From assembly GCA_023055505.1 (NCBI GenBank), contig JALIRH010000043.1, forward strand, positions 3,668,001 to 3,732,000: DNA of 64,000 nt, in the 5' to 3' direction. How positions within the stretch are numbered: the first letter of the stretch is position 1; each line of letters starts with the position of its first letter. Positions 666 to 48,748 of the stretch are shown in pieces. Under the pieces are notes generated by a model. It was not told the DNA's origin and made no database searches. It saw nothing but the letters and a program-made list of their open reading frames with translations. The stretch is from Callipepla californica brunnescens. Lineage: Eukaryota > Chordata > Aves > Galliformes > Odontophoridae. The position numbers were made by a program, and so were the translations under genes.

Positions 666-3600
666 TCCACGATGTGATCCGCATCACGGTGCAGCCGGAG
701 TCACAGGCAGTGGAGGAGGGGACGTGTGTGTCCCTGAGCTGCTGGGCCACCGGCCCGCCAGGGCTCACCTACCAGTGGTTCTGCGGAAAGCAGGAGGTGA
801 GGCCCACGTCCTCTCCCCTATACCCGCACCGGTGGGAGTGAGCATCCAGAGCCCAGCCCCTCTGTGCCATAGGTGGCTGGAGCCACAGCCCCGGAGCTGG
901 TGGTCGACACTGCTGCACCGCCGGGACCGCCCCACTGGTACATCTGCCGCGTGAGCTGTGGGGCCGCCTTCGCCTTCTCCAGGTGGGCTCACATCCAGGT
1001 GGAGAGGAGCGGCAGCCCCGAATCAGGTGGGCCCTAGGGTCTGTGGGGCGTTGCTCACCCGAAGGACTAAGAACGGCTCCTGTAGGGTACTGCTCCCATA
1101 TGGGACTGGGAATGGCTCCTGTAGGGCATCGTGACCGGGTGCTGATCGGCTGCCCTTCCCATCCGCAGCCAGTGGTTACTGCCCCAGCATGGCAGGGCTG
1201 CAGATCCTGCAGCAGCCGCGGCCGTGCCGCCTGGCCGAGGGGGACCCGCTGGTGCTGGAGTGCAGAGCCCTCGGGAACCCACCGCCACAGTACCAGTGGT
1301 TCAGGAACCGGCGCCCCGTGGAGGGTGCACGGGCACCCCGGCTCCAGGTACCATAGCCCCTTGTCTGGCACTGCATGGCACAGCGTGGCATGGCATGGGG
1401 CAGCACAGTGCGGTGTGGGGCAGCGTGGTGGCTCCAGCTCTCCACCCCCCGCAGGTGCAGCTGGTGACGACGGCGGAGCGGGGCACATACTCCTGTCGCG
1501 TGTTCAACCTCTTCCATGAGCTGTGGAGCCAGGAGGTGGATGTGGAGATTGGTGAGAGCAACATCCACACCCCACGTTCCCTGCCCTGCAGCACCCTGGG
1601 TGCTGCAAAGCCCCCCAGCCCCATAGCACCTGAGTTCCACCTTCTCCTGACTCCACTTTGCGCTGCCTCAGGCCCGCGGCTCTTTGCCTCCGGAGCCCCC
1701 TGGCAGGACGGGGATGGAGGTAGGTGCAGGCGGTGGCACTGTCCCTTCTTTATGCTCGAGGCCATTGCCACCACCTCTCCCTTTGCAGACTCCCCGGAGC
1801 CCGGCAGCCCCGAGCAGTTGTACGGTGAGATCCCATCCAGGGGGAGTGGGGGACCCTGCGGGGCTGTGACGCAGTGTGGGGCACTGGGGACAGCAGGATC
1901 ATCCCTCTGTGTCCCCATGTGTCCCTGCAGCCACCGACAAAGTGGCGCTGCTGGTGGGCAACATGCACTACGCGCACCACAAACACCTGCGGGCGCCGAT
2001 GGTGGACGTGCACGCGCTCGGCGCGCTGCTGCGACAGCTCGACTTCAAGGTGGTGTCACTGCTGGACCTGCGCCGGGACGAGATGCAGATGGCTGTCGAT
2101 GAGTTCCTGCTGCTCCTCGATAAAGGGGTCTACGGTGGGGCAGCTCCTGAGGGGCTGCGGGGCTCTCACGGAGGGGGGGTTTGGGGCTTGGGGACATGCG
2201 AGGTGGAGCGGGATGTGCCACCACCCCCTCTCCCACTGCAGGATTGCTGTACTATGCTGGACACGGCTATGAGAACTTTGGCACCAGCTTCATGGTGCCC
2301 ATCGATGCCCCCAGCTCCTACACCTCCGCCCACTGCCTGTGTGTGCAGCACGTGCTGCAGCGCATGCAGCAACGCCGCACCGGCCTCAACATCTTCCTGC
2401 TCGACATGTGCCGCAAGAGGTGACCCCCACCTGTCCCACCCGTGACTCTGTGGGTGTGCTGGGTGTCACCCCACGGGGCCCCGCAGCACTCAGGGGCTCT
2501 TCTATTACAGGAACCTCAATGACGACGTCATCCCGCAGGTTGGGGCGCTGGAGGTGACGGCCAACATCGTCTTTGGCTATGCCACGTGGGTCCCCAATCA
2601 TACATCCTGCTTGCTGTGGGGCCGGCAGGACACAACCCCCCTGGCCCAGAGCAGGGATGCGGTTCTGACATCTCAGCCCTATTAGCACTGCATTTTTCCC
2701 TGACGTATGAATGCGCTGTGACTCCACAGCACAGCTCCGGCCCCCTCAGGGTGCGGTCCTCTATGGGGTTGGGTGTGCTCATGGCTGTGCCGACCTCCTA
2801 GCAGCACCCAAAGGCTCAGAGCACCGATGCTCACCCAGAGCTCAGGGATTCCTGCAGCGTGGGGTGGGGGTCCCAGCACCAGAGCCCACCCTGCCCATCC
2901 CTGCAGGTGTGCAGATGCCGAAGCCTATGAGCTGAGCCAGGGTGAGCTCTCCAACGGCGTCTTCGTCACCTTCCTCAAGCGCTGGCTGCTGGAGGATGAG
3001 AAGATCACGGTGCTGCTGGACAAGGTGGCCGAGGGTGAGTGCCACACAGCGGGGTTCGAAAGGGCCACAATCCCCCCCCTCCGAGCCCACACTGTGCCTG
3101 GCCCCGCAGACATGGGCACGCTGGAGCTGACGCGGGGCCGCCAAGCTCTGGAGCTGCGCAGTAACCTGTCGGAGAGGCGGGCGCTGACCGACCCCATCCG
3201 CTCCTCGGGATGGGCTGAGACCTCCGCCAGGAACCTGCAGTGGGCAAAGGCTCACGGTGCGTGCCACCACCACCTCCCCCAGTGGGTGGGGATGGGAAGG
3301 GGACAGCCCCGAGGCACGGGGTGGGTGGCACGTGGCATCTGCAGTGCACCACCAGCCCCAAGGCTTCACACCGGGGCTGCCCCCGCTGTCACCCCCCGTG
3401 TCACCCTGAGCATCGTTGGGGATCAATGCGGTGTCACCATGCTGCTCGCTGTCCCCGCAGTCCTCCCGGAGTGCCGCCACCTCCGCTTCGACTGCGGCAT
3501 CACGGTGCAGCTGGGCTTCGCTGCCGAGTTCTCCAACATCATGATCATCTACACCCGCATCCTGGCCACCCCTGGGGACATCACTGAGTGTGTGGCCAAG

Positions 3601-4187
3601 CTCACCGACCTCCCCGAGGTGGGGTGGCACACCTGGAGGGGCAGCACTTTGGGAGGGGTGGGGGTCCCACAGTGCCATCCCCCATCCTGCCATCACCATC
3701 CCCTGTGGCAGGAGCTGGACGTGGACCTGAAGTGCACCAACCAGGAGAGCCCCGAGGAGCTGGGCAGCCCCTTGGTGCCCACCTGGAGTGCTACCTGTCC
3801 CTCCTGCTGCCTCTACAGCCGCCTCTGTGGGCTGCAGAGATTGCGGGTAAGAGCTGTGCCACACCAGGTGTGTATGTGGGGACACACACACACACGCAGA
3901 GCCCCCCCGTGCCCACCTTGTCGTGTCCCCCCCTGCAGCAGGAGCTGTCCTTCACCATGTGCCTGCAGTACCGCTACCGCGGCATGGCCGACTTCGTGGA
4001 GGAGCGGCGGGCGGTGAACGTGGGGCGGCCGCTCATCGCCAAACTCAACCTGAGCCCCCGGGACCCCGGCACGCTGCACACCTCGGGGGGGTCTGGCAGC
4101 CCCCTGTCCCCATCACCCCCTGGCAGCTGGGGGAATGGCCCCAAGGAGAACCTGACCTCTGTGGTGCCTGGATCGCATGGGGTGTAA
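666..4187 (+). CDS. MALT1-like paracaspase (type 1 paracaspase paralogue), 5' partial
   Basis: Cysteine protease of the paracaspase family; MALT1 cleaves after arginine and acts in CARD-BCL10 signalling to NF-kB. Exons: 666-796, 873-1026, 1169-1347, 1455-1551, 1672-1719, 1789-1824, 1931-2134, 2242-2419, 2511-2585, 2907-3034, 3110-3256, 3461-3618, 3712-3846, 3939-4187; all GT-AG and in frame, 638 visible residues. Order: Ig1 (about 1-90), Ig2 (100-185), caspase-like domain (215-430), Ig3 (about 450-590), short tail. Catalytic His290 lies in YYAGHGYENFG (codon 2262-2264) and Cys339 in LLDMCRKR (codon 2409-2411), 49 residues apart as in MALT1. The RNLQWAKAH motif before Ig3 is kept (W454). The tail is far shorter than in MALT1, so the distal TRAF6-binding segment is absent. 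The many differences from MALT1 and the RAX2/complexin neighbours indicate a paralogue (PCASP2/3 group) rather than MALT1. The start codon is outside the window. Confidence 0.9.
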
Positions 4188-4193
4188 GGGGGC

Positions 4194-4530
4194 AGCTCTG
4201 TGTACTGGGCACTGCCACCCCATGTACAGAGCAGTGCCACTGTACGTACAGAGCGCTGCCATCCCATTATATATAGGGCTGCGTCACCCCATATACAGAG
4301 CAGGGCCACCCCAACCTAGGACACTGTCACCCCACATAGAGGGCTGTGCCATCCCGTTATATATAGGCCCATGACACCCCATATGTAGGGCAGTCCCATG
4401 CACAGAGTAGTGCCACCCCACACACAGGACAGTGCCCGCTACGTGTCCCCCAGCAGGGCAGTGAACCCCATATTTAGGGTGGTACCATCCCATTTACAGG
4501 GCAATGCCAGCCCCGTGTCCCCTCGCAGAG
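4194..4530. repeat. Minisatellite abutting the paracaspase stop codon
   Basis: Diverged tandem units of roughly 20-25 bp of the form GTGCCACCCCATATACAGAG begin a few bases after the TAA at 4185-4187. The array therefore forms the start of the 3'UTR. No canonical AATAAA was noticed in the following few hundred bases, so the transcript end is unknown. Confidence 0.8.
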
Positions 4531-4959
4531 CGGTGCCACCCCATAGGGAGGAGCCCCCTGTGTCCCCCCTGTGGACACTGCCCCCCAGGTCCCCCAGCTG
4601 CTGTGGGGTGGGCAGGGGGGCAGGGCCAGGTGCCGCAGCTCAGCGAGGCGTCGCACCGGGGCGGGATTGGGCTCATTCAGGCCTAGGAGAAATAGAGAGA
4701 AATAAGCAGATTAGGGGGCAAATCCCACAGGGGGGGGACGGGCGAGGGGAGGTGGAGGGCTCCTGCGCGGTGGTGGGGGGCACAGATTTCAGGGGATGAT
4801 TGAAATCTGGGGGGTTGGGGGGGATGGAAGGATGCCTTTTTGCTCCGATGACGTGAGCCGGGGGTGCTCACTGCTGTGTGCCAATGCTCCGGAGCGGCCG
4901 TGGGGGCCCCTCGACCCAATTAGGGTGGGCCGTGGGGCAGCCCCCTCCCCGCCGCCCGC

Positions 4960-5600
4960 CCTTTGTTGGCCGAGGGGTGCCCGGGCGTCGCAGCGGGGTC
5001 GGCGCCAACCTCTGCCATTATGTCATGCGAAAAGCGCAGCCCCCATTCAGCGTGTCCCGTCCCCCGGATCAAACCCCATTACTTCCGCGGCCGTTGCTTC
5101 ATTATCTCCCGCGCCGAGCACGCCTCTGCCCGTGGCCCATTAGCTGGGCTGGGGGGCCGGGGGAGCATCGATTTTGCGTTTAATGGGTTGTTAAAGGTTT
5201 AATTATCGCTAACGAAGCAGACGAGCAGCAGCAGCCGGGGGACGGGGACGAGGAGCCGGGTCCCCACGGGGTCACCGCGGCCTGGACGGTGTCATCGCGG
5301 CGTCTCCCGCAAGACCCCCGGCCGTGGGCACAGCTCTGCCCCGTGTTCGGCCCCAGTACATCCCATGTGCAGAACCCCAAAGCCCCTCCGTGTGCCATCA
5401 TCCCCAACAGTGCCAACCACAGCCGTCCCCAGCTCCGTCTGGGGCACCTCACCACCGCCACTCTCCTGTCCCCACTCCCACTGGGACCGCGTGGGCCCCA
5501 CTGGGGTTACCCCCCCCCTTCCACCCGGCAATTACGGCAGCTTTGTGCCACCGGCACCGCTGGAGAGCAATTAGGGCCGGAGTGACGGCGGAGCAGATTC
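4960..5600. promoter_or_regulatory. Candidate cis-regulatory island between the paracaspase gene and RAX2
   Basis: Non-repetitive sequence between minisatellites, without coding potential that could be defended. It mixes GC-rich stretches with AT-rich homeodomain-type words: CCATTAGC near 5138, TTTAATGGG near 5180, TAATTA at 5200-5205 and CAATTA words near 5530 and 5570. The position just 3' of RAX2 and the contrast with flanking repeats suggest an enhancer. This is inference only. Confidence 0.35.
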
Positions 5601-6014
5601 CCCCTGACAAGCATGCGGGATGCGGGCCGGGCTCCGCTCACCCGTGCGTGGGGCCGGCGGTGTTTCCGTGCAGATGTGGATTTCTGCAGCCCGGAGCGGA
5701 GCGCGGCATCCCCGCTCTGCCCATCTCCCTGAAACAACAACAGCCCCCGGTTGTTCCCTACGAAACTAGAGTGTTCCTGTTGGTGCATTAAAAAAGAAAA
5801 AGGAAAAGAAATTCTTGATGATGATGATGATGATAATAGTAATAAAGGGGTGCGGGGACCCCCCCCAGGTCCTGCATGGCCGCACGGAGGCGGCTGTGAG
5901 TGCCCCCGCGCCGCTGTCCGCGGTGCTCAGTCCTGGGGGGCACGTCCCTGCTCCGGTCCTGCCGAGCACCCCGCCGTCCCCCCCCCCGGGCTCGGGAGCA
6001 GGGGGCAGCGTTCA

Positions 6015-8086
6015 TCAAATGGGCTGCCAGGTCTTGTCGATGGTCTGAATGTGCTCCTTGGCTTTCATGCGGAGCGAGGCGATGCTGGAGCTCCTCTGGT
6101 CGACGTCCTCCAGCGGGTACTTGTCCACAAAGGGGGTGCCGCACTGGTAGGGCGCGGGGGCCATGGGCTGCATGCCCTGTGCCATGCCCGGGGGGGTGTT
6201 GAGGAAGGAGTGCCCGCCGTAGGGGGGCTGCAGGGCCTGGGGGGCCCCCATGAAGCCGGGGATGCTGTGCACCGGAGTGGCGCTGGAGATGGGCGACGTC
6301 AGCCACGGGTCGAGGGGGAGGGAGTTGCTCATGGGCCCCACGTTGGCTGTCATGGGCGGCCGGTTGAAGGACAGCATGGGGGTGTCGTGGATCTTCATGG
6401 AGCTGGCCTCCATCTTCTCCTGCCGCCTCCACTTGGCTCGCCGGTTCTGGAACCAGACCTGCCGGGGGACAGTAAGAGTGATCCGGGGGTGCGCGCCCCA
6501 CGGCTGGTGGTCCCTCACAGCACGCTCCTCAGGGGCACCCCATGTGTCATGCCCTTGCAGGGTGACCCTCATGCCACGTCATAAGCAAGGTCCCCCATGA
6601 GCTTTGTCCCACATAGGGTGTCCCTTGTAGGGTGTCCCATGTCTTGAACACCCTGTAAGGTGACCCTTGTGCCATGCTATGCAAGACGTCCTACACAAGA
6701 TGCCCCATGAGCTTCGTCCCACATAGAGCGCCATTGTAGGCTGACCCTCATGCCGTGTCCTACACAAGATGCCCTATGGGCTTCGTCCCAAATAGGGTGA
6801 CCCTTGTAGGGTTTCCCATGTGCTGTATCCTCTGCAGGGTGGCCCTTGTGTCATGTCCTATGGAAGATGTCCTACACAAGATGCCCCATGAGCTTTGTCC
6901 CATGGAGAGTGTCCCTTGTGGGGTGTCCCACATGTTGTACCCCCTGTAGGGTGGTGACCCTTGTGCCACGTCCCATGTACGGTACCATGTCCTGTGTAAG
7001 ATGTCCTGCATGGTGTTCCACGTAGAGTGCTCAGTGTGCTGTGTCCCACGCGTGGTGGTGACACGGTGATGGTGAGGATGGGGTGGTGGTTGGGCTGATC
7101 TCAGCGCTCTGTCCAACCTTAATGATCCTGAGATTCAGTGACCCACATAGGGTGGCCCACGTGCCATGTCCTGTGCAAGACATGTCCCATGGAGAGTGCT
7201 CTGTGTGACACACACCATGCCAGGTGCCCCACATCCCATGCCCCAGGCGTGGTGCCTGTATGATGTGTCCCCCCTGTGCCGTGTCCTAAGTGGGGTGCCC
7301 CACGCGCTGTGCCCCGTGCAGGGTGCCCCATGCGGGGCGCCCCGTTGTGCCGTATCCCACGCGGGGTGCCCCATGCAGGGTGCCCCACACGGGGTGCTCC
7401 AAGCAGTGCGTCCCCTGCGCTGTGTCCCCCGTGGGGTGTCCTGAGCAAGGTGCCCCACGCGCTGTGTCCCCCACGGCTCCAGCAATCCCTGCTCTTTTGT
7501 CACTCCTGCTCTATTTGGCTTTCTCTCCCTTTGTTGTGCTTTCAGACCCGGTTGCTGGAGGGACTGTCACCGCCTGTGCTGGCAGCGGGGTCTGCTCCAG
7601 GCTGAGCCCCCACGCAGAGCAGGGCTTTGTGCCAAACTGCCCCGTGTCCCGGCTCCAGGAAACCTAAAATCCTGAATCCATGAGAATCTCAGGGCTTCCC
7701 TGGCCACGAGGAGCTGATGGCAGTGAGGAGCTGCTGAGGGTTGTCACCCTTCCTATGGGACCAAGGCAGGATGCAACCCCACACTCCCACCCTGACCCTG
7801 TGCTTTGTGCAGTGTGGGAACGGAGGTGCGGAGCTGTCCCTACCTGCACGCGGACCTCTGGCAGGTTGACCTTCATGGCCAGCTCCTCGCGGCTGTACAC
7901 GTCGGGGTAGTGGGACTTCTCGAAGGCGCGCTCCAGCTCGTGCAGCTGGTAGGTGGTGAAGGTGGTGCGGTTCCGACGGTGCTTCTTTTTGGGCTGCTCC
8001 TCCTCGGCGGCGGCCGGAGGGGTCCCCTCGCTGTCCCCCGGCTTCCGCAGCTCACCCAGGTCCCCCTCACACTTATTGAGGAACAT
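6015..8086 (-). CDS. RAX2: Retina and anterior neural fold homeobox 2
   Basis: Paired-type homeodomain transcription factor that acts in the nucleus in retinal progenitors and photoreceptors, binding TAAT-type sites. Coding exons 8086-7844 and 6458-6015 give 228 residues. The start MFLNKCEGD resembles the MFLS start of mammalian RAX2. The homeodomain begins near residue 35 after a [11 protein letters not shown] run. The intron splits it between residues VQ and [12 protein letters not shown], the usual place in paired-class homeoboxes. A C-terminal OAR motif ([14 protein letters not shown]) ends near residue 218, followed by WQPI and the stop. The protein is longer than human RAX2 and has no octapeptide before the homeodomain, which fits RAX2 (chicken RaxL) and not RAX. 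An acceptor-like CGCAG at 8095-8099, just upstream of the ATG, indicates a 5'UTR intron. Confidence 0.95.
6530..7480. repeat. Minisatellite filling the RAX2 homeobox intron
   Basis: Diverged tandem units of about 20-50 bp containing GTGTCCCATG, TGCCATGTCC and AGATGCCCCATGAGC words occupy most of the intron 6459-7843. Units change towards GGGTGCCCCACGCG after 7280. Long open frames on both strands here are translations of the repeat, not genes. Confidence 0.9.
7093..7141 (+). mobile_element. CR1 3'-end fragment inside the RAX2 intron
   Basis: The words GATCTCAGCGCTCTGTCCAACC and TTAATGATCCTGAGATTC match the typical 3' end of avian CR1 LINEs (CCAACC followed by ATGATTC repeats). It is a very short tail that interrupts the minisatellite. 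Confidence 0.5.
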
Positions 8087-8349
8087 CTCAGCTCCTGCGA
8101 GCGGATGGTGGGGTCAGGAGGGGTGTGGGGACAGCAGACCACCCCATGAATTCCATCTGGACGAGCAGATGGACAGGAGATGGGCCGTCCCTACAGCACT
8201 TCCATGGGGCCACCAGCTCTGAAAACCACTCAGGGGCAAGCAGAGCTGGTCAGGTCCATCCCCCCTCCCCGTTCCCACACTCTGTCCCATGAAACTGCCC
8301 CACATCACTGCAGGACCCCATTCCAACCCCCACAGGACGACCAGAGCAT

Positions 8350-8590
8350 GTGGATTGATCGCTGTGCGTGCAGGGCCCGGTGTGCAGTGTGCATAGCCAT
8401 GGACGCAGCGTGCACCATGCAGTGCCATGCAGTGCACAGAGCGCGGTGCAGTGCGTATGCAGTGTGCACCGTGTGTGTGTGCAGCAAACACAGCATCCGT
8501 GTGCACAGCACGTGCAGTGCACCCAACATCCGCTGCGTGTGCAGCTCTGTGCTTGTGCATGCAGCAAACACACGGGGTCCTCGTGCCCTG
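8350..8590. repeat. TGCA-rich tandem repeat upstream of RAX2
   Basis: Short diverged units of the GTGTGCAGTGCGCA type, made of GTGCAGTG, TGTGTGCAGC and CAGCAAACACA words. No coding signal is visible. It lies in the presumed 5' intron of RAX2. Confidence 0.7.
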
Positions 8591-8715
8591 GGTGACACCT
8601 CCCGGCCCCATTGTCCCGTGGGGTGCAGTGGGGTGCGATGCCCCGCTGTCACTGTACTGGGGTTGGGGATATGGGGAGGGCCCGGGACCCCCGCTGCCAT
8701 CCCACTCGCACTCAC

Positions 8716-8742
8716 CCGCTTCTCATTTGCGCAGCTCCGCAC
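8716..8742 (-). other. RAX2: Possible 27-nt 5'UTR exon of RAX2
   Basis: On the minus strand an acceptor-like CTTGCAG (8748-8743... ending at 8743) is followed by 27 nt and a strong donor GTGAGT starting at 8715. Spliced to the presumed acceptor before the RAX2 ATG (exon from 8094), it would place a short upstream ATG frame in the leader. Evidence is splice-site appearance only. RAX2 in other vertebrates has a non-coding first exon, so the real one may lie elsewhere. Confidence 0.25.
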
Positions 8743-9239
8743 CTGCAAGGAGAGGGGAGAGGGGTGAGCGGTGCTGGGCCCCGCAGGGTGAGGGGGATGG
8801 GGACACGTGGGGACGGGGAAGGTTGGGGCTGAGGGGTGAGGGTCAGGGCTGTGTACAGGACAGCCAAACCCATCCAGAAGGAAAGAAGGCCCCAAGAAAA
8901 CAGGGAGAGAAACCATCCTGTGGGACAGTTGCGTGGTGCCCCACTGCTGCCCGCCTCATCCCCAGAGGCATCACACTGCGTCCCCATGGCACCACGTCCC
9001 CCATGTTGCCCAGCAGGCAGCCCCTTGGGTGCTGGTGCCATCAGTGTCCCCTCACCCCATATGCTGCTGGTGGGCTCTGCGCTCCGTGCCCCGTACAACA
9101 CGCTCCCTCTGTGGACCCGAGGGCACCCGGGACGCGCAGCGGGGCGGTCTGGGGACACCCCCCACCCTCTGCCATGCCCCCACAGCACGGCACAGCCCCA
9201 TGCCCACCCCGCTCTGCTCTGAGCCTCCTCCCGCAGCAC

Positions 9240-9570
9240 TTTCTCCCGAATTCCCGCAGAACGGCGTTACCTGCTGGGCCCGATGCGGCTTTTCCAGGAG
9301 TATTTAACTTTGCCGGTCCCTCCTGGGAACCAAACAAGCGGCTCAACCTCACCAATCTTGCAGCTTGGCAGCCAAAGTTGCCTCTAGTCTTCTTATTTGT
9401 CACAGAACCGCCGCGCTAAGGCTCGGGAGAATCTTTATTTAGTGTTGCAGATGTCACCAAGGCCCCGCAGATTGGAAATGAGTCCAAAGGATTAAGACGA
9501 GGTTATTAATTGGAGGCCTTCCCCTTTAAGAATGATTGACAGTTACTTTCTGGACAAGTAATTGCTCTAA
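9240..9570. promoter_or_regulatory. Candidate RAX2 promoter/enhancer island
   Basis: Non-repetitive AT-richer sequence upstream of RAX2. It holds an exact TGATTGACAG (9533-9542), a decamer known as a PBX-MEIS/PREP site; GGATTA (9489-9494), an OTX/CRX-type core; and TAATTG homeodomain cores at 9507-9512 and 9559-9564. Flanking DNA is G-rich repeat. Function is inferred from motifs and from position 5' to RAX2. Confidence 0.45.
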
Positions 9571-9879
9571 ATGTCCCCCCAGCGCCGGGCGGGCCGGGGG
9601 GGCTGCGGGTGCACAAAGCCCCGCGCTGCCTTCCCCGCTCGGATTGTCTCCCCACAAAGGCGTCCTGCTGGAGTTTTCCTTGTAATCCCCTCATTATGGG
9701 AGAGGAAAAAGAATTAGAAACACGGGGCAAGGAGAAGAAAGGCGGGGGGGGGGGGGTGGGGGGGAGGGAGAGAAACAATTTCCTTTGGCTTTGCCAGCGC
9801 TGCGCAGCCGGGAATGGGGCTGCTCTGGGGATGCCATGGGGCTGCGTCCCCCATTGGAGGTGATGGGGTGGCCCCATGG

Positions 9880-10560
9880 CAGCATGTGGGGTCCCTTGGG
9901 ATGCTGAGTGTGTGGGGACACGTGTGATGTCTGTGGGTGTCACAGCAGGCAGTGGGATCAGCTTGGGAACCGTGGATGGGATCAGCTGTGGGTGTTACAC
10001 CAATCATGGGGGGGTGGGCATGGGGTCGAGCAACGGGACCGTCTTTGGATGTCACATCAAGCATGGGAACCAGCAATGGGGTCAGCTGTGGATGTCACAC
10101 CAGCCATAGGGACCAGCCATGAGTCCACCTGAGATGTCACACGAGCATGGGGTCTGGCTATAGGACCAGCTTGGGATGTCACATCAGGCATGGATGTCAC
10201 AGCAGACATGGGAACAAGTGATGGAACCAGCTGTGGATTTCACACCAGGCGTGGGGAGTGGGCACGGGGTGCAGCAGTGCGACCACCTGAGGATGTCACA
10301 GCAGGGATGGGGTCAGCAGCAGGGACTGCCCAGAGGTGTCACATCAGGTGTGGGGAGCGGGCACAGGGAGCAGTCCCGAGCACTGGGACCAGCCTGGAAT
10401 CCATCTGTGGGTTCTGCTGTGGATGTCACACCAGGCATGGGATCAGCTTGGGACCAGCCATGGGCACCAGCTACGGGACCATCTGTGCATGTCACATCAG
10501 CCATGGGGACCAGATAGGGAGGAACAGGTGTGGGGGACTGAGCACAGGGACAAGGGGTGG
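9880..10560. repeat. Minisatellite between RAX2 and the complexin gene
   Basis: Diverged units of about 25-60 bp built from GGATGTCACACCAGGCATGGG and GACCAGC words, tandem on the plus strand. Frames read through it (GMGSAVDVT-type) are repeat translations. 10560-11390 is less repetitive GC-rich DNA in which nothing could be recognised. Confidence 0.9.
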
Positions 10561-11389
10561 GCATGGGACAGAGCACAAGGACACACTATGGGGCTGTCTG
10601 TGGGGTCTGGCCACAGGCTGTGGGACGTGGATCCGTGGTGCAGACAGCCCCATGCCTGCAGTGCTGTGGGGCAGAAACATCGTGCTGCTGGGGGCCCCAA
10701 CCCGGTGGGGGTCGGGAGCACTGGGATGGGGTCTCTTCCCCTTCACCTCCAGGTGTCTGTGCTGCCCAACTGCTGCCAGGTTTCCCCTTTTTGCCCTCCG
10801 CTCCCTTTTACTTTCACCAAAAACCCTCTTCCTGCCACCTGCCACAGCTCTTGCCCACCATCTCGGCTTCCCCCCACCCCCTTCCTCTCCTCAGTGCGGT
10901 TCCTCTTTCAGATGCTGTATGGGTTTTTGGTCACCCCCCAGGCTCTGTACCACCCCATGGAAGTGCCACGAGCACTGGGCTCAGACCCCAAAGCCACTGT
11001 GTGTCACTGCCAGTGGGGGTGCACCACGACCCCCATCCCCCTGCGCTGCTGTAGGGTGGTGGGGACGTCCCCATGTTGGGGACCACGCACAGGGACACAG
11101 ACACCAGTGGGCACCTTGTGCCAACACCACCAATGGCAGCAAGAGGACATCCCCGCAGCACCACGGGGACGCGGCACACAGAGCTGTCCCAGGAGGACCC
11201 CCCCTCACCTCCAGAGCCTCTTGCAGACACCCAGGAGCTCCGGAGGGACCCAAAGCTCTCGGATCCCCCTCAGAACCGCTGTGTCCCCACCGGGACCACC
11301 CGTGGGCGGTTTTCAGTGCGGGCGCAGCCGCCCCAGCTGCCCGGATTTGGATTTACCCACCAGGGCCGTGTGTGCGGAGCCGGCCCCGC

Positions 11390-11710
11390 TAAACCGCCTT
11401 AAGGTGTTGGCTCACACGGGCGGGGGAGGCCAGCAGGCTGATTTGACAAATGATTATAATTGCCTTTTAGGAGCAGATAGCAAATTGATTTGCTTCCTCG
11501 TCCAAGGCCCGTAATCGCTTCATCACTTTAAAATATTAATGCTATACTTCTTTGCTAGTTTCCCAATTACCCTAATTGAAGGCAAATTGGTTAAGAAGGT
11601 GCAATGCAGAGTATCAGGGGGTTTAGTTCACTCAAATGACAGTTTTAAACCTCCCTAATCCTATTAGCGGGCAAAGCTGCTAACGCTTAGAGACGCTGCG
11701 TCAGCTTACC
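11390..11710. promoter_or_regulatory. Strong candidate conserved regulatory element between RAX2 and complexin
   Basis: About 300 bp of unique, AT-rich sequence in otherwise GC-rich repeat DNA. Homeodomain cores: TAATTG at 11457-11462 and 11573-11578, CAATTA at 11564-11569; a CRX/OTX-type TAATCC at 11656-11661; and a near-palindromic GCTGCGTCAGC (11695-11705) resembling a MAF/NRL site. This mix is typical of photoreceptor control elements. No open frame or splice signal explains the composition. Conservation itself could not be tested. Confidence 0.5.
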
Positions 11711-12284
11711 GGGGCGGTGGGGCCGGGGCGGGGGTCGGGGCTGGGGGCCGCTGGCCGCACGTGACCAGCTCTGCCGGGGATTTGTCACTTTTTTAGTTCA
11801 TTAAGAGGCCCGGGGCGGGCGGGCGGGCGGCAGGGGTGACCCCAAAAGGGTGCGGAGGCACAGGTGGCAGCGTGGGGGCAGCGGGGGGGTTGGGTGATTA
11901 GCTGGGGAGACCTGGCCGAGGGTCCTGCCCCGGATCCCAGCTGGTGCTGGGAGCCCACAGGGAGCACTGGGAGCTGGCGATCCCAGTGCTCGGCCCCAGG
12001 GGATGGTGGGGATGTGGGGTGGGACTGAGCTGCCCCACAGAGGGCTCGGGGGCAGTACGGCCATTCGGAGTGTGTCCCAATGGGAGATGTTCTGCACCAT
12101 GGTGGGGACCGCGGGGACACCATTCCGTGTCTGGGGGCTCCAAAGGGCACCACCTCGTCAGCAACATATGGGGGTCAGGGACCCCCACCCCGTGACCCTA
12201 TTGCTGCTGGGGCAGCTGAGAGCTGCAGCACAACTTCCACTACACCAGCACAGCATTCGGCCCCACTGCCATGGGCACGCACCC

Positions 12285-12445
12285 CACAGACCCCATACCC
12301 ATGGATGCAATGGGCCCTGCAGGCCCCATAGGCCCCACAGATACTGTAAGCCCCACAGGTCCCACGTGCTCTGCAGACCCTGCAGGCCCCACAGAAGCCG
12401 CAGGCCCCATAGAACCCACTGGCCCCACAGGCCTTTCTGGAGCAG
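12285..12445. repeat. GGCCCCACA short tandem repeat
   Basis: About 160 bp of 9-bp-type units (GGCCCCACA, GGCCCCATA). Read in frame they look collagen-like (GP repeats). No splice or start signals support coding. Flanking sequence 11710-12285 and 12445-13135 holds no recognisable gene, apart from a G-run at 12718-12733. Confidence 0.75.
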
Positions 12446-13135
12446 ATGGTCCCAGTGTGGGGAGCCTGGGGTGGAGGGGGCTGAGCACATCCCTCCTTGC
12501 ACACAAGCGCAGTGTGAGTCCCGGGCGGCCCCACGGGGTGGTGGCATTGGGGGCAGCGCTGGTGGTCCATTTTACACGGGTTCAGCGAGCTTAGTCCTCG
12601 GGGACAGGCGACTCAGGCAGATTAGACCTCCCTAAAATAGGCAGGTATTAGTGATCTCAGCAGCCTGCAGCCTTCCGGAGAGCGCCCGCGCGGCGGCGTT
12701 TAAGCCCACGGTGCTGTTGGGGGGGGGGGGGTGGGACAGGGGAGACCCCTGGGGGTGCGGCCGTGGGTTGGGAGTATGGGGCATGGAGCTGTGTGTGGGG
12801 TGGGCACGGTGCTGAGGAGTTGGGGATGGTGTGGGATGGGGATGGTGTGGGGCGGTGGCATCGTGCAGCAGCACTGACAGCAGGCTGAGCCCACAGAATG
12901 CTGCTTTTATTGACCCAACCCCCCCAGGGGTGGGGTGGGGACCACTGCATGCCCTGGGCCAGGAGTGGCACCAGGAGTTGGGTGAAAAGGACCCCTCCAT
13001 CTCTGCCCAGAGCCCCCAGAAGTGCCAGGGAATGGACTGGGGGGGGACAACCCACCCCCAGCATGGACGTGGGGCCCCCACCCTGGCGTCCTGCACCCAC
13101 ATCCCACCCAGGGGCCTGACCCCCCCGGTGCCGCA

Positions 13136-14637
13136 CTACATCAGGGAACACTTCTCCTTCACTTCATCCACAGTGCCCATTGCACGGCCCCGCAGCGCCG
13201 GCAGATCCACGTCGCGCAGCTTGGCCAGGAAGGCGAAGGCTCCCTGCTCTTCCTCCTCCTCCTCCTCCTCGTCACGCACCATGGCGGCCAGCTCCTGCGG
13301 CAGCTCCACCGCACCACCCGCCACGTGCAGCTGGGCATCGTCCCGCTCGTCCTGTGTGGGTGGGAGGTGGCACTGGGGCTGCGGATGGACCCCCACCACC
13401 TGGGGAGGGAGCGGGAGGAGCGGGCTCCCTGGGGACAGCTGGGGATGGGGCTGCCTGGGGGCCCAGCGGCTGCCCAGCCCCACACGGGGACTGCTGGGGC
13501 TGCACAGCCCCACATTGGGACTGCTGGACAGGCGGGTGTGCAGGCGGATGGGATGGATGGAGACAGCAGCTGTCTGCTGCCCTCTTCAGGAATCGCCTCC
13601 CATCCTATGGGACCTGGGAGGGGGAGGATGGCCACCGCCCTGCTCGTTGGGATTGGGGCTGGGGGGCTTGGGATGCCCCTGTGTGTCCATACCTGGGCCA
13701 GGTGGTACTTGTCCCGCAGGTGCATGCGCACGGTTGCCCGTTCTGCTTTCTTGTGTGCAAAGGCTTTGTCCCGCTCGATCCTGTGTGATGGGTGATACTT
13801 TGTCACCTCTGCCCCAGTGGAGTCCCCACATCACCCCCCAGCCTGGTGTGGCTGCGCCCGTCCAAGGATCCAAAGGTGCAGTGATCCAACTGGGGGTCTC
13901 GGGATGGGGGCTGCATCCTGCCCCGCACCTGGCGGTGATAGCTGTGGTGGGAGGAGGACTCGCTCCTCCATGGACTCTCACTTCCCTGACGGCATCCCCA
14001 AATCACCCAGATTTGGGGTGGTGGCAGCTGAGTGCAGCCCAGCGCTGTCCCCATTGCCCCCTGCCTCTGTGGGCCCTGGGGTGAGGTGGCACTGGGCACC
14101 TCCCTTTCCTTTGTCACCCGTGGAGTGCTGAGTCCCTGTGCCAGCACCCATGGGGACCTCCTGCACCACAGAGATATCTCACACTGTGGGGACCTCCTGT
14201 ACCACTGGGACATCCCACCCACACCATGGGGTCATCCCTCACCATGGGGACACCCCACACCATGGAGACCTCCTGCACCTGGGGATCTCCTGCACCTTGG
14301 TGACATTCCAACCCATGGGGAAGTGTTGCACTACGGGGACATCCCACAGCATGGGGAGCTCCTGCACCCTACGGACCTACTCTGCTCCCACCCTCTGCCT
14401 CCCTGTCCCTGTCCCACCCATGGAGGGGATGAGTGAGACCCCGGTCCCACTGCATGAGGACCCTGCAGCCCCACCCAAGCCTTACTTCTCCTCCAGCAGC
14501 TGCCTCTGGTACTCCTCAAACTCCTCGTGGGACATGCCGTGGGGCAGGGCGGCTGCCTTGCCGTCCTTGGGGGCTGCCTTGGGCTCCTCCTCACCCCCCC
14601 GCAGGTTCCTCAGGGCGGCCGTGAAGAAGGCGGCCAT
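13136..14637 (-). CDS. Complexin 3/4-type SNARE regulator (CPLX4-like paralogue)
   Basis: Complexins bind assembled synaptic SNARE complexes; the 3/4 type is prenylated and works at retinal ribbon synapses. Exons 14637-14486, 13780-13693 and 13351-13136 join in frame to 151 residues. The N-terminus MAAFFTAALRNLRGG is amphipathic and shorter than in CPLX3/4. Then come the accessory region (MSHEEFEEYQRQLLEEK, about 35-51) and the central SNARE-binding helix (IERDKAFAHKKAERATVRMH, about 52-71) with the RDKYHL continuation. The rest is the family's HVAGGAVELPQELAAMV block, an acidic stretch, and a C-terminal CSLM CAAX box predicted to be farnesylated. Gene order beside RAX2 mirrors CPLX4 beside RAX on human 18q21, so I read it as a CPLX4-type duplicate. 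An acceptor-like CTTGCAG ending at 14687 indicates an upstream non-coding exon. Confidence 0.88.
14150..14375. repeat. Minisatellite in complexin intron 1
   Basis: Tandem units of about 24-30 bp containing CACCATGGGGACCTCCTGCAC, within the intron 13781-14485. No other feature is evident in this intron. Confidence 0.85.
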
Positions 14638-15698: not shown

Positions 15699-18600
15699 TT
15701 AAACATCCTTCAGGTGCTTCAGCTCTTTCTGCAGCTTCTCCGTGAGCTTCTTGAAGGACGGCCGCTTGCCCGGCTCCATCTCCCAGCAGCTCTTCATCAG
15801 TGTGTACACAGTGGGTGGGCAGCCCTCGGGGGGCTCCATGCGGTATCCCTGCTCCAGCTGCTCCGTCACCTCCTTCAGGCTCTGCAGGCGCAGTGGGGTG
15901 CTGGGATCCCCCTACCGGGGGCATCGGGGATGTCCCCATCCCGCACACCCCATTTGGGATGTGAAACCCCTGTACTCACCAACTTGGGGTAGGGCGCTCG
16001 GCCGAAGGAGAACACCTCCCACAGGAGGATCCCGTAGCTCCACACATCCGATTTGGAGGAGAATTTCTGCTGTGGCACAGGGCAGGGGCTGCGGCCGGGT
16101 GGGGACCCACCGCTCCCCAGCTGCACCCTCACCTCACCATGGTGAGGGGACCCCAGACCCCACATCCCACAGGAGATGCCCTCACCCTTGGGATGAGGAT
16201 CAGGACAAAGCCCAGATTTCAGGAGATGGGGAGTCAGCACAGAGCAGGGATGGATCGGTGGGATGGGGTGGGGGGAGCTGCTCTGGGGGCCCTTCACTCC
16301 ATCACTCACATTGTGCTTCAGGGCCTCAGGAGCTGTCCACTTTATGGGCAGCAGTGTGGTGTCCGCGCCCCGGGGGTTGATCCTGGCCAGGCCAAAATCG
16401 CTCACTTTGGCCACGTTCTCCTCGGAGATGAGGATGTTGCGGGCAGCCAGGTCCCTGTGCACCAGCTTCTTGGACTCCAGGTAGTCCATGCCCTGGGCCA
16501 CATCCCTGCAGTGATGGGCAGTGTCACCATGTGTCCCCCTGCCCTGCTGTCGCAGTGTCCCCCTGTCCAGGTGTCAGTGTCCCTTGTCCAATCTGAGTGT
16601 CACCCTTACCCCCCCATCCCAGTGCCACCATGTCCCCCATTCCAATGTCACCGTGTCCCTCAGGGTAGTGGTGATGGTGATGGAGGACTCACAGAGAGAA
16701 GTGCAGGAGCTGTGGCAGTGGGACGAGCGCGCGGCCCCGCGTGCGCAGGAAGTTGACCAGGTTGCCCTGAGGGATGAGAGAACTGTGTAAGGACCATTGG
16801 GATGGAGCTCCCAGAATAATACAACTGTGGGTTTTATCTGAATATGGAGCTGTGATCGGTCCCATCAGCAGAGGCCCGGCCGCCCTCACCTTGCTCATGA
16901 ACTCCATGACGATGTAGAGGCCGTTGTGCAGGATGACACCAAGCAGCCGCACCAGGTTCTTGTGCCGGACCTTCCTGAAGTGAGGGGTCCGCGGTCAGGG
17001 GGTCCCCCTCCCCCAGTGCCACGGGACGGGGTCTGGCTGTACCCCCGCTCCCCCACTCACGTCATGGTGGCAGTCTCAGTGAGGAAGGCCTGGGCGGTCA
17101 CGTCACACTTGACGTTCTTCACAGCCACCTTCTGCCCCATGTACTCACCCTGCAGGACATCTGGGGGGACACGGAGCGTCGGGCACAGGGCTGCCCCACA
17201 GAGCCCCAGGACAGTGGGGACAGTGCCCGCGAGAGGCATCCAGCGATGCCCTTTGGGGTCCTCTGGCTGAAGACCTCCAGTCCCACCTCCTCACCTCCGA
17301 ACTCGCCCTGTCCGATGCGCTCTCCCAGCGTGAGGTGCTGCAGGTTCAGCAGCCAGCCGGCTGCACGGTCACAGGGATGGGTCAGAAAGCCACCAGAGCC
17401 ACCTCCTCCCCCAGAGCTGGTCCTCACCCCCTCCCACCTTTGGCCAGCTCCTCCTCAGCCGATTTCATCCCGCTCTTGGCTTTGGGCTTCACCAGCTTAG
17501 TGCAGAGGGCTCCTTGCTGCTCCGTGTAGTGCTGCAGGACAGGGCAGGGGGTGAGGAGCCAGGGAATGGCCGTGGGGTGCTCTGTGGTACCCCAATGCCT
17601 GTCCCACTCAATAGGGAATTCCAAACCAACGTCTCCCCATGGGGCACAGCCAGGGCACACTGCCACGGAGCAGCCTGTCCTTGGGGGTGATGTGGAGGGG
17701 GTGGTTTGCAGAGATACAGCAGCAGGAGCAGTGGAGCTGCAGCAGTGTGGCTGAAAGGGGAAAGGGACCACCTGAAAGCAGATGTTGTGTCTAAACATGG
17801 AAACTATCGGGAAGCACGAACACCCAGAGTGGAGGCACGGAGCGGTTGTGGGTCAGGGAAGAGGCAGAACCGGAGGAAGAGCTTTCTGGAAGCGGGAGAG
17901 ACAGAGATATATTCAGCAGCAGCCAGGGCAGAGCAGCAGCATCCATTGCACCCACAACTGAGCGGGGTCTGGAGAACATTGTGCGGTGGAGAATGGCAGG
18001 GGGTGACAAAACCCACCAACAGCTTCAGCAAAGCCCCTGGGAACAGTGGGATGCTGTTGCTGTGATGTCACACAGATGGCAGCACTGGCACACGGGGTCA
18101 AGATCACCCCGTAGCTTCTCCATCACCGTGTGCCAGACCAGAGTGACCCCAGTGTCCTGAACGTTGGGGCTCTCACCTCGATCATGTCGATGAGGTTGCA
18201 GAAGTACTGCTCGCTGTCGATGCTCAGCGTGTTGTCCCGGTGCAGCACGCGGTAGTGGATCACCTCCTTGCCGAAGCTCACGCACAGCACGTAGTCACCG
18301 GGGTGCCGGACTGACTCACGCACCAGGAACAGCCCATCCTCAGGGGGCTGCAGCTCCTCCACCGCCTCCACCCCTGAAATCTTCCCATGGAACCAGCTGG
18401 GAATGGGGGCATGGGGATAGGGGTGTGGGGTGAGAATATGTGGAGATGAGGAGTGTGGGTTGAGGGGTGAGGGGATGTGGGGTTGGGGATCTCCCCCAGC
18501 ACCAGCAGCAAGGCAATAGGAGCAGAGACCCCACAGAGGCCATGCAGACCCCACTGCAGCCTTCTCCCCACTGGGGCCACCCCACCTGGTTGGGCACGAC

Positions 18601-19230
18601 GGGGGACTTTGGAGCCAACAAAACCATTGGTGACGTGGGCTCTGCACTGCTCTGCCCTCAGCAGCCCCTCCAGACACAGTGGGTGGAGGGGGAGGGGGAG
18701 GAATGTGTGAGACCCCCCTGCAGCCGCCAGGACCCCTGCAGTACTCACGGCATGAGGCTGAGCTTGGGGTCAGCACGGATGGCCCCGCGCTCCCGCAGAG
18801 CTCCAGCCGCCAGCAGCCCCTCCTGCCCACTGTCATTGTGCCGTGCACGGTACCAGCTCTTGCCCTGCAGACAGGATGGTCTCAGAAAGGGGACACCGCA
18901 CCGGGAAGGTCGCAGCTCCAGTGGCACTGCCAACCCCACGGCCCCTGGGGTCACCTCCACAGCCTCGATGATGGTGACCATGTCTCCCTTGCGGAAGCCC
19001 AGCTCGCCGGCCTTGGGCTTGGTGTGGTCGTGCTTGGTGACACACTGGGTCCCCGCGGGCCAGTGTTTCTGCAAGAAGAAGGCAGCATCACCAGGATGGT
19101 GAGGGCAGGGATGCTCAGACCTGGGGTCAGCCCCAGCTGGAAGGACTGCGTGGGATGGGACTCCCAGATGCCACATCCCTGTGTCAGTGCACTGCAGGAG
19201 GGGACGGTGAGCCCCACTCACCCCAGACAT
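15699..19230 (-). CDS. MATK: Megakaryocyte-associated tyrosine kinase (Csk-homologous kinase)
   Basis: Non-receptor tyrosine kinase that phosphorylates the C-terminal inhibitory tyrosine of Src-family kinases. Exons: 19230-19222, 19068-18955, 18864-18749, 18396-18177, 17531-17438, 17360-17295, 17160-17061, 16974-16890, 16766-16693, 16505-16310, 16066-15980 and 15881-15699; phases agree at every junction, 447 residues. SH3 about 5-75, SH2 from WFHGK (81) to about 165, kinase about 193-440. Visible kinase motifs: GQGEFG loop (201-206), VAVK Lys221, HRDLAARN (309-316), DFG (329-331), WTAPEAL. There is no inhibitory tail tyrosine after the kinase domain, as expected for Csk/MATK. The start exon encodes only MSG before a GTGAGT donor. 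It is preceded by an acceptor at 19268-19269, so a non-coding exon lies upstream. Human MATK isoforms differ in length here, so an upstream start is possible. Confidence 0.95.
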
Positions 19231-20714: not shown

Positions 20715-21265
20715 TAAAAGGGTGAAAGGAAGAAGGAAAGAATAGAAAGAAGGAAAGAAGGGTGGAAGGAAGGAAGGGTGGGAGGAAGGTAGGAAGAGAA
20801 CGAGGGAGAGAGGGAGGGAGGGAGGGAAGAAAGAAAGGAGGAAAAAGGAAGGGAAGGGAAGGGAAGGTGTAGGGAAGGGAAGGGAAGGTGTAGGGAAGGG
20901 AAGGTGTAGGGAAGGGAAGGGAAGGGAAGGGAAGGGAAGGGAAGGGAAGGGAAGGGAAGGGAAGGGAAGGGAAGGGAAGGGAAGGGAAGGGAAGGGAAGG
21001 GAAGGGAAGGGAAGGGAAGGGAAGGGAAGGGAAGGGAAGGGAAGGGAAGGGAAGGGAAGGGAAGGGAAGGGAAGGGGAAGAAGGGGAAGGGGAGAGGGAG
21101 AGGGAAGGGGGAAAGGGGAAAGGGGAAAGGGGAAAGGGGAAAGGGGAAAGGGGAAAGGGGAAAGGGAAAGGGAAAGGGAAAGGGAAAGGGAAAGGGAAAG
21201 GGAAAGGGAAAGGGAAAGGGAAAGGGAAAGGGAAAGGGAAAGGGAAAGGGAAAGGGAAAGGTTGG
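20715..21265. repeat. 550-bp polypurine tract, (GGGAA)n then (GGGAAA)n
   Basis: The plus strand is almost only A and G. GGAA/GGAAG-type words lead into near-perfect (GGGAA)n at about 20900-21075, then GGGGAAA and GGGAAA units at 21105-21260. The boundary between pentamer and hexamer arrays is sharp (about 21075-21110). The long Pro/Phe/Ser frame on the minus strand is an artefact. Confidence 0.97.
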
Positions 21266-21535
21266 GTTATGGTTGGGACTGGGATTGGAATTGTTTTGAG
21301 TTTGGGGTTAGAGCTGGTTTGAGGAAGGGCCGGGGCTGGAATTGGGATTGGTGGTGGATTGGTGTTGGGGTTGTGTTGAGGTGAAGGTTGGGTTGGGGTT
21401 GGGTTTGGGGTTTGGACTGGGGTTTGGATTTGGATTGGCATAAGGGTTGGGTTGGGGTGAGGATTGGGATGGGGTTAAGGTTGGGTTGGGTTGGGATTGG
21501 GTTGGACTTGGGCTTGGGCTGTTGTTGGGGTAGAG
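21266..21535 (+). repeat. Degenerate telomere-like G-rich array, GGGTTG type
   Basis: About 270 bp of GGGTTGGGGTT, GGATTGG and GGGGTTA words on the plus strand, diverged from TTAGGG. It follows the polypurine tract directly. Confidence 0.8.
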
Positions 21536-21895
21536 ATGCAATGGAACAGCATGGCCAAGCAAATTCTAAGACATTTTAATGCAAAAGAAGTAATTCTGTG
21601 TAATTCTTGCTATGTACCAAACAGGAATGAAGCAGAGCTGCACACTGCGCTGTTATGCGTCAGACATTAAATCCTGTGCCTTTCTACACACAGAATACAA
21701 GTTGGGAAAGGACAAAGTGGCCAATGGGGACACACATTGGGGTTGGGGTTAGAGAGGTACTGAAAGGGGACAGTTCAGAAAATGTGCAGTGCTCTGAGAA
21801 GGCTGCACGTGAGTGGCCGGGGGCCCGAAATGCATCCAATGAATTCAAGTATCACTCCTTCCTCATGAGTCAGAGGGTGAAAACAGAGCTCTCCT
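21536..21895. other. Unique spacer between opposite telomere-like arrays
   Basis: About 360 bp of non-repetitive sequence. No coding frame, LTR ends or element ends could be recognised. Confidence 0.5.
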
Positions 21896-21899
21896 TCCT

Positions 21900-22740
21900 G
21901 GCCCTAACCCAAACTCCAACCCCAGCACAACCACAACAAATCCCCAATCCCCATGCCAACACTAACCCCAACCACAACCCCAGCCTCAAAATCATCCCCA
22001 ACTCCAATCTCAGCCACAACCTTAACCCAACCCCTTTCCGGAGTCCAACCCAAACCCCAATGTCAACCCTATCCCCAACCCAACTCCGACCCCATCCCCA
22101 ACCCTAACCCAACCCCAACTCTAACCCCAACCCCAACCTCAACTCCATTCCCAACCCAAACCCCAGCATCAACCTCGTCCCCAACCCCAACTCAACTCCA
22201 ACCCCAACCCCAAGCCCCAAACCCAGCCCCAACCCTCACTCCAACCCTAGCTCTAACACCAGTCCCAACCTCAAACCCATTTCCAACTCAAACTCCAACA
22301 TCAACCCTGATCCAAACCCCAGCCCATTTCCAGCCCCAACCTCATCCCCAACACTAACTCCAACCCCAACCTCAAATCCATTTCTAACACAACCCTATCT
22401 CCATCCCCATCCCCAACCCATCCCCATCCCCATCCCCAATCCTAACCCAACCCAACCCCATCCCCATTCCTAACCCAACCCTAACCCAATCAAACCCAAC
22501 CCCAACCCCATCCCCAATCCAACTGAACCCAACTCCAACCCCATCCCCATCCCCAGTCCAACCCAACCCATCCCAACCCCATCCCCAATCCTAATCCAAC
22601 TATAACCAAACCCAACCCCAACTCTAACCCAACTCCAAACCCAACCCAACACTCACCCCAATGCTAACTCTAACCCCAATCCAACTCCACCCCCAACTCT
22701 AACACACATCCCAATCCCAACCCTAACCCAACCCCAACTG
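21900..22740 (-). repeat. Degenerate telomere-like C-rich array, CCCAAC/CCCTAAC type
   Basis: About 840 bp of CCCCAAC, CCCTAAC and CCCCATCC words on the plus strand, so the G-rich strand is the minus strand. It is opposite in orientation to the array at 21266-21535. Open frames of Pro/Thr/Asn are repeat translations. Confidence 0.9.
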
Positions 22741-23700
22741 GGAATTGGAGGGAATGGGGGGAATGGGAAGAACTGGGAAATTAGGGAGAACTGGGGGAAA
22801 TAGGTGGGAATTATGGGGAACTGCGGGATTGAAGGAATTGGAATTGAGGGAATGTGGGGGAAATTAGCGGGAATTGGGGGTAATTCTTGGTAATTATGGA
22901 GGTAATTGGGGGTAATAGGGTAGAACAAGGAGTAATTAGTGGGAATTGATAGTAATTAATGGGATTTCACAAGGTAATTAGTGTGAATAGGGGGTAATTG
23001 GGTGTAATGGTTGGGAATCGGGGATCAATTAGTGGGATTTTGTGGGAATTGGGGATAATTAGCAGGAATCAGGTGATTAGAGCGAATTAGGGGTAAGTAG
23101 TTGGAATTGGGTAATTAGTGGTAATTGAGGGTATTTAAGGATAATTACGGGGAATTAGTGGGAATTGAGGGTGTAATTAGTGGGAATCAGTGATAATTGG
23201 AGATAATTAGTGAGAATTAATGGGAATAGTGGTGGTAATTAGTGAGGAGTATAGGTAATTTTGGGATAATTAGTAAGAATTGAGAGATAATTAGTGGGAA
23301 TTAGTACTAATTAGGGGGGTAAAAATGGGAGAATTAGTGGGATTTAGTGGGAACTGGGGGAAATTAGTCGGGATCAGTGACAACTGGGGGTGATTAGGGG
23401 TAATTAGAAGCAGTTAATCGGTAACTATCGAGTAACTAATGGTAATTAATGGATAATTAGTGGTAATTGTGGGTAACTGTGGTGTAATTACAGGGTAATT
23501 GGGGTTACATGGTGGGAATTAATGGGTACTAATAGTAATTGTGGGTAATTGGTCGGGGAAGTATTGGGGAATTAGTGGAAGTTTGGGTAACAATTGATAA
23601 TTAGGGGCGATTATGGGCAGTAATTAAGTGGTAATTAGTGTAATTCCGTGGTAAATAATAGCTAATGGTGATAATCAATGGGCAATAACTTGACGAAGTT
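22741..23700. repeat. AT-rich degenerate array of GGGAATTAGT/GGTAATTAG units
   Basis: About 1 kb of diverged units of roughly 10-20 bp such as GGGTAATTAGTGGGAATT, with very many TAATTA/TAATTG cores. No gene signals. Confidence 0.9.

Positions 23701-27181: not shown

Positions 27182-48748
<21,567 letters not shown>

Follow-up and report, generated by a model that had tools for sequence, protein, structure and literature searches.

A paracaspase-2, RAX2, complexin-4c and MATK cluster in Callipepla californica brunnescens is probably one of at least three copies of an old vertebrate gene block

The window analyzed here is a 64,000-nucleotide stretch of the Callipepla californica brunnescens genome (GenBank assembly GCA_023055505.1, contig JALIRH010000043.1, hereafter C43, positions 3668001-3732000), and its subject is a cluster of four genes at the left end. 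The genome assembly comprises 1.085 Gb in 321 contigs. The first 19 kb of the window hold, in order, a paracaspase gene on the plus strand followed by RAX2, a complexin 3/4 gene and MATK on the minus strand, all with open reading frames. Pfam domain matching was used for the window proteins and for the 10 kb upstream. The genes of the cluster are listed by position in the window.

666..4187, plus strand: PCASP2 (paracaspase-2, MALT1-like), 14 exons with GT/AG junctions and one open frame, encoding Ig1, Ig2, the caspase-like domain, Ig3 and the C-terminus
666-796, 873-1026, 1169-1347, 1455-1551, 1672-1719, 1789-1824 and 1931-2134, plus strand: PCASP2 exons 1-7 in the window
2242-2419, 2511-2585, 2907-3034, 3110-3256, 3461-3618, 3712-3846 and 3939-4187, plus strand: PCASP2 exons 8-14 in the window
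2242..2419, plus strand: PCASP2 catalytic exon, with the conserved contexts YYAGHGYENFG (His) and LLDMCRKR (Cys) by translation
6015..8086, minus strand: RAX2, 228 residues; exon 1 (7844-8086) carries the Met start and most of the homeodomain, exon 2 (6015-6458) the rest of the homeodomain, the OAR domain and the stop
13136..14637, minus strand: complexin 3/4 family gene of the 4c type (CPLX4c), exons 14486-14637, 13693-13780 (88 nt) and 13136-13351, 151 residues ending in CSLM (a CAAX end)
15699..19068, minus strand: MATK (CSK-family tyrosine kinase), 11 exons and 445 residues from SH3 to the stop, with the start 5' of 19068; Pfam SH3, SH2 and kinase matches

The original prediction had set a paracaspase, RAX2 and a complexin 3/4 gene side by side within 14 kb, and the exons, open frames and Pfam matches agree with it. 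It ran from 666, where the first paracaspase exon of the window begins, to 14637, the A of the complexin start codon. MATK lies 1.06 kb beyond CPLX4c. Comparison of the MATK protein with solved structures gave two matches above the cut-off, both CSK, of which 1k9a was the best. The family assignment predicts that MATK is an inhibitor of Src-family kinases.

From the caspase-like domain onward, the paracaspase matched Pfam Peptidase_C14 (1.1e-28) and MALT1_Ig (2.1e-51), and Ig was also matched. The gene starts outside the window: the 10 kb upstream contain two further exons, for the N-terminal (death-domain) region, and their reading frame continues into the window exon. These first 114 residues agree with chicken paracaspase-2 at 93%, counted from the first Met, and with a shark paracaspase-2 sequence at 54%, and no Pfam death domain was called in this N-terminal region. 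Protein searches were evaluated on the best 120 of 1430 and the best 120 of 612 matches for the paracaspase and the best 120 of 176 matches for the complexin. The best paracaspase matches listed came from galliforms: turkey at 95% (over 94% of the query), guineafowl at 93%, and two chicken sequences, one named "paracaspase-2" at 89% and the other at 94% over 91%. Both catalytic contexts were recovered by looser patterns in all 226 sequences compared (120/120 of P0001-P0120 and 106/106 of P0245-P0351 without P0265). The strict string YYAGHGYE is present in 120/120 of the first set and 30/106 of the second. A shared change at the TRAF6 site was considered as a mark of PCASP2 and rejected as not diagnostic, the pattern [STCAVN]PEExG occurring in 110/120 of the first set and 19/106 of the second.

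In its caspase-Ig3 region the window protein has 64% identity with human MALT1 and 70-72% with paracaspase-2 sequences of cartilaginous fish (three compared). A separate paracaspase on contig C41 of the same genome, compared over two exons, is 88-92% to human MALT1 and 75% to the window gene. In a tree of 22 paracaspases, 18 PCASP2 sequences including three from cartilaginous fish fell on one side of a branch supported at 92/100 and present in 200/200 bootstrap trees. The opposite side held PCASP1 of human, of sturgeon and of C41. The third paracaspase of the genome, PCASP3 on contig C12, was the only outgroup and joined neither group. The sturgeon PCASP1 was represented by Acipenser sinensis sequence P0241, used only as a fragment; P0241 contains the caspase region more than once and is probably a faulty gene model. 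The window paracaspase is thus identified, by its sequence, as PCASP2, apart from MALT1/PCASP1. Its family membership predicts a MALT1-like arginine protease and NF-kB scaffold.

The RAX2 protein matched the Pfam homeodomain and OAR models. An octapeptide-like motif was not found in the window by the pattern used, and the text of Kon & Furukawa 2020 (PMC7137802) describes the octapeptide as absent in tetrapod Rax2. RAX-type genes were found at two places in the genome, C43 and C41; the next match was a 62% homeobox (150 of 178 candidates scored). Because of its structure, its MATK neighbor and the separate RAX on C41, the window gene is assigned to RAX2, a predicted retinal transcription factor by family.

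The complexin protein matched Pfam Synaphin (1.7e-26). The text of PMC2941751 gives exon 2 of cplx3/4 genes as invariant at 88 nt, with which the window complexin agrees. Its closest sequence among the matches listed was Cyrtonyx (98%), followed by other birds and then mainly by amphibians, lungfish, cartilaginous fish and bowfin; the Mustelus and Amia sequences within the best 120 of 176 carry the name complexin-4c. A tree of 16 complexins was built with CPLX3 and CPLX4 of the same genome and human sequences. Twelve 4c sequences, three of them from cartilaginous fish, formed one side of a branch supported at 99/97, apart from CPLX3 and CPLX4, and the split was retained at 96/96 without the human sequences. 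Within the 16 sequences compared, only those of the 4c type carry F40, I52 and E109; R45 was rejected as a private residue because it is also present in the CPLX3 of this genome. These results suggest that complexin-4c is an old gene that birds have retained, their copies being called complexin-3-like or complexin-4-like. By family, CPLX4c is a predicted prenylated SNARE regulator of ribbon synapses.

The bird complexin-4c sequences have a long branch (0.57-0.7) and lack about four residues that other sequences have before the CAAX end. No turtle, crocodile or lizard is named among the 120 complexin matches listed, in which amphibians come after birds and a few entries are nameless. Turtle and crocodile sequences are present in the paracaspase-2 listing. 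CPLX4c may have been lost, or may be unannotated, in non-avian reptiles.

Several of the listed database entries are named MALT1, complexin-3-like or complexin-4-like, as would be expected if the window paracaspase and complexin were recent or bird-specific copies of MALT1 and CPLX4, or their true orthologs, the two outcomes that the original prediction had named as its refutation. Both are almost certainly incorrect. Separate MALT1 and CPLX4 genes are present on C41 of the same genome, and cartilaginous-fish sequences fall with the window genes in both trees, which argues that the window copies are old and not bird-specific. PCASP2 and CPLX4c would be older than the cartilaginous-fish split, provided that the roots of the two trees lie outside these groups.

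Paracaspase genes occur at three places in the genome: the window, C41:959103-972308 on the minus strand and C12:313668-322837 on the plus strand. Complexin genes occur at five: the window, C41:857281-872339 (plus), C12:1766040-1767948 (minus), C184 and C14. The C41 gene is CPLX4 and the C12 gene CPLX3 by sequence, and those on C184 and C14 are of the CPLX1/2 type, assigned by elimination. RAX lies at C41:878016-879028 (plus), and LMAN1-type lectin exons at C41:836146-841391 (plus), with other lectin matches on C14 and C37 only. Read on its reverse strand, C41 presents PCASP1, RAX, CPLX4 and the LMAN1-type lectin within 136 kb in the order and orientation of the window. Chance neighborhood in the window was rejected and is not a serious alternative, because the same families recur on C41 in the same order and orientation. 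The block duplication proposed in the original prediction is borne out by this recurrence and by the split of the window copies from the MALT1 and CPLX4 of the same genome.

The original prediction had counted two clusters; three were found. On C12, CSK lies at 1773040-1776419 on the minus strand, 5.1 kb from CPLX3 and on the same strand. Read with the paracaspase forward, this contig presents PCASP3, a gap of 1.44 Mb, CPLX3 and CSK. The orientation of PCASP3 is that expected from the block order, and the block genes downstream of the paracaspase are on the opposite strand on C43, C41 and C12 alike. Paracaspase and CPLX3/4 genes are therefore found on all three contigs, RAX genes on C43 and C41, and CSK/MATK genes on C43 and C12. 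Under uniform placement, the probability that the three paracaspases fall one on each of these contigs is 2.3e-6. Three paracaspases on the three contigs bearing the three CPLX3/4 genes fit ohnologs of the vertebrate genome duplications. PCASP3 (in C12:313501-323500) retains the YYAGHGYE and LLDTCRK contexts though its caspase exons are only 49-63% to the window gene.

A counterpart or a loss of MATK had also been predicted for the block at human 18q21. No MATK/CSK match was found in C41:820001-920000, nor on C41 genome-wide among the 95 of 355 candidates scored. The MALT1 block would thus have lost it; the counterpart of MATK is instead CSK, beside CPLX3.

The window is best explained by an old block that was copied in the early-vertebrate whole-genome duplications and thinned by differing losses; at least three copies would have survived, among them the window. 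We assign this reading a probability of roughly 0.87. The ancestral order would have been PCASP(+), RAX(-), CPLX3/4(-), LMAN1(-) and CSK/MATK(-). Copy A, the window, would have kept PCASP2, RAX2, CPLX4c and MATK and lost LMAN1. Copy B (C41; human 18q21) would have kept PCASP1/MALT1, RAX, CPLX4 and LMAN1 and lost CSK/MATK. Copy C (C12; human 15q24) would have kept PCASP3, CPLX3 and CSK and lost RAX; LMAN1L, present in mammals, was not found here. In mammals, PCASP2 and CPLX4c would have been lost in place from copy A, leaving RAX2 next to MATK. We infer an origin in the first and second rounds of whole-genome duplication (1R/2R). The main inference of the original prediction, a block duplication probably in the vertebrate genome duplications, holds, and the C12 block fits it.

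Several observations weigh against this explanation. A distance of 1.44 Mb separates PCASP3 from CPLX3 on their 19.4-Mb contig; the chance of the same contig is 1.8% and of that distance 0.27%. A third RAX was not found in the genome among the 150 of 178 candidates scored, and C12 gave no lectin match. The PCASP3 branch is very long (3.68), well beyond the branches of PCASP1 and PCASP2, and the paracaspase tree is therefore poorly rooted. In a 20-sequence tree without PCASP3, the Callorhinchus (elephant shark) sequence grouped weakly with PCASP1 (68/40). The complexin tree has no outgroup and its midpoint root falls inside 4c, so that 4c is a split and would be a clade only with the root outside it. 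The trees leave the branching order of CPLX3, CPLX4 and 4c unsettled. Finally, the text of PMC7137802 reports one Rax in cyclostomes, those of lamprey and hagfish branching outside the group of Rax and Rax2.

That Rax tree underlies the proposal of a narrower duplication. According to the text of Kon & Furukawa 2020, Malt1-Rax-Cplx4 and a paralogous counterpart occur in elephant shark, gar and coelacanth, and the favored origin is a small segmental duplication that copied only Malt1-Rax-Cplx4 in the ancestor of jawed vertebrates; the authors do not exclude a genome-duplication origin (PMC7137802). The arrangement is accordingly not special to birds, as the original prediction had presented it. 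The tight blocks on C43 and C41 have exactly these three families in common, in favor of a segmental copy. The cyclostome argument loses its force if 2R took place on the stem of the jawed vertebrates, once cyclostomes had split off, as given in PMC10927551. A single cyclostome Rax outside both jawed-vertebrate genes is then the expected tree and needs no segmental event. A segmental copy also leaves unexplained the third paracaspase on the CPLX3/CSK contig, the position of MATK beside CPLX4c and of CSK beside CPLX3, and the position of LMAN1 and LMAN1L beside CPLX4 and CPLX3 (PMC2941751). Genome duplications explain more than the three-gene segmental copy, which we consider quite unlikely.

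Linkage in other species was evaluated by matching contigs between the paracaspase-2 and complexin listings. The same contig of one species was inferred from an equal base number in both listings; 109 complexin entries had such a number, and the count covers numbered entries without the later teleost paracaspases, some species names being incomplete. Among the matches listed, paracaspase-2 and complexin-4c share 27 contigs: 22 of birds, two of newts and one each of Protopterus, Amia and Scyliorhinus. The shortest is 100,087 bases (Heliornis), and the locus tags of the two genes in the newt Pleurodeles are three apart (005323, 005326). For Nyctibius grandis, Calonectris and Melanerpes the contig numbers differ between the listings, a difference tentatively ascribed to separate assemblies or to clusters that extend over two contigs.

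RAX and complexins 3/4 are both retinal genes. A useful adjacency of retinal genes could have been created by separate later rearrangements and not inherited, and the text of PMC2941751 supports the retinal character of complexins 3/4. The linkage of paracaspase-2 and complexin-4c on one contig in catshark, bowfin, lungfish, two newts and 22 birds argues against such rearrangements, as do the identical order and strand in C43 and C41, the 2.3e-6 probability under uniform placement, and the same block order reported in the text of PMC7137802 for elephant shark and gar. Later rearrangement is very improbable.

Parts of the duplicated block have been described before. The complexin paper in Neural Dev (2010) is, we presume, that of Zanazzi and Matthews. 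Its text places CSK and LMAN1L beside cplx3, with CSK 5' of cplx3, and LMAN1 and RAX around cplx4, and infers an ancestral LMAN plus cplx3/4 unit (PMC2941751). The position of CSK 5' of cplx3 there resembles that of MATK 5' of CPLX4c here, with an 88-nt exon 2 in both. The genomic-neighborhood section of PMC2941751 gives none for cplx4c and mentions neither paracaspases nor MATK. Its text places the cplx duplications in teleost and amphibian history, whereas the 4c type recognized here includes birds and sharks.

The text of the zebra finch degradome paper (PMC2865498, 2010) records that chicken and zebra finch have three paracaspases, of which mammals lost two. A PCASP1/2/3 triplication in jawed vertebrates is described in PMC5978004 (2018), the main text of which treats no synteny and contains no words starting with synten or chromosom. 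Unlike these accounts, the present analysis pairs each paracaspase with one CPLX3/4 gene, either close by or elsewhere on the same contig. The main text of PMC7137802 makes no mention of CSK, MATK, LMAN1 or CPLX3; MATK and the third block PCASP3-CPLX3-CSK are added here to the block pair of Kon & Furukawa, and the whole-genome reading is favored. In the text of PMC2211742, human ONECUT1/2/3 lie at 15q21.3, 18q21.31 and 19p13.3 and RAX/RAX2 at 18q21.31 and 19p13.3; these human ONECUT positions agree with a chromosome set shared by the blocks and a flanking family. No paper was found that, in the text available, states three blocks or ties PCASP3 to CPLX3/CSK. As far as the text of these papers extends, the pairing of two blocks is already published, and the new elements are MATK in the block and a CSK-marked third copy with CPLX3 and PCASP3.

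The origin of RAX and RAX2 is disputed in print between segmental and genome duplication, and the third block argues for genome duplication. With it, the dispute can be put to the test, and decided, in any vertebrate genome assembled to chromosome level. With its three paracaspases placed in a single paralogon, the immune CBM protease family would go back to the genome doublings. Complexin-4c is a possible ribbon-synapse protein for which no mammal is named among the 120 matches listed. A wider proposal derives the paracaspases, RAX/RAX2, CPLX3/4/4c, LMAN1/LMAN1L and CSK/MATK of jawed vertebrates from one pre-vertebrate five-gene block, the RAX-complexin adjacency being held, wherever RAX survived, by a putative shared retinal regulatory domain. 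We regard this proposal as unlikely; if true, regulation would have kept gene order through two genome doublings.

The surroundings of the cluster were examined on both sides. The 10 kb upstream of the window hold genes with guanylate-kinase, PDZ/PTB and mitochondrial-ribosomal features, which we take to be TJP3, APBA3 and MRPL54; the MRPL54-like match is slightly below the Pfam cut-off. The human 19p13.3 order is presumably TJP3, APBA3, MRPL54, RAX2 and MATK, and the bird order would be this order plus PCASP2 and CPLX4c. The right neighbor of the cluster, outside the block, is as follows.

30127..48745, plus strand: ELAVL1-like RNA-binding gene, with Pfam RRM_1 matches in the open reading frames 30127-30405 and 48383-48745

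The ELAVL1-like name is our assumption from recognition of the letters at about 30-49 kb. Pfam matched none of five open reading frames chosen from the 51-64 kb region. Glutamate-transporter (SLC1/SDF) exons lie on the minus strand at positions 2-1108 of the 10 kb downstream of the window, in a gene that we presume to be EAAT4-like. GGAAG arrays and long degenerate CCCCAA/TTGGGG-type arrays occupy 20726-23551, between MATK and ELAVL1. Positions 1-637 of the window are G-rich and resemble dozens of places in the genome at 65-75% identity, a dispersed simple-sequence family.

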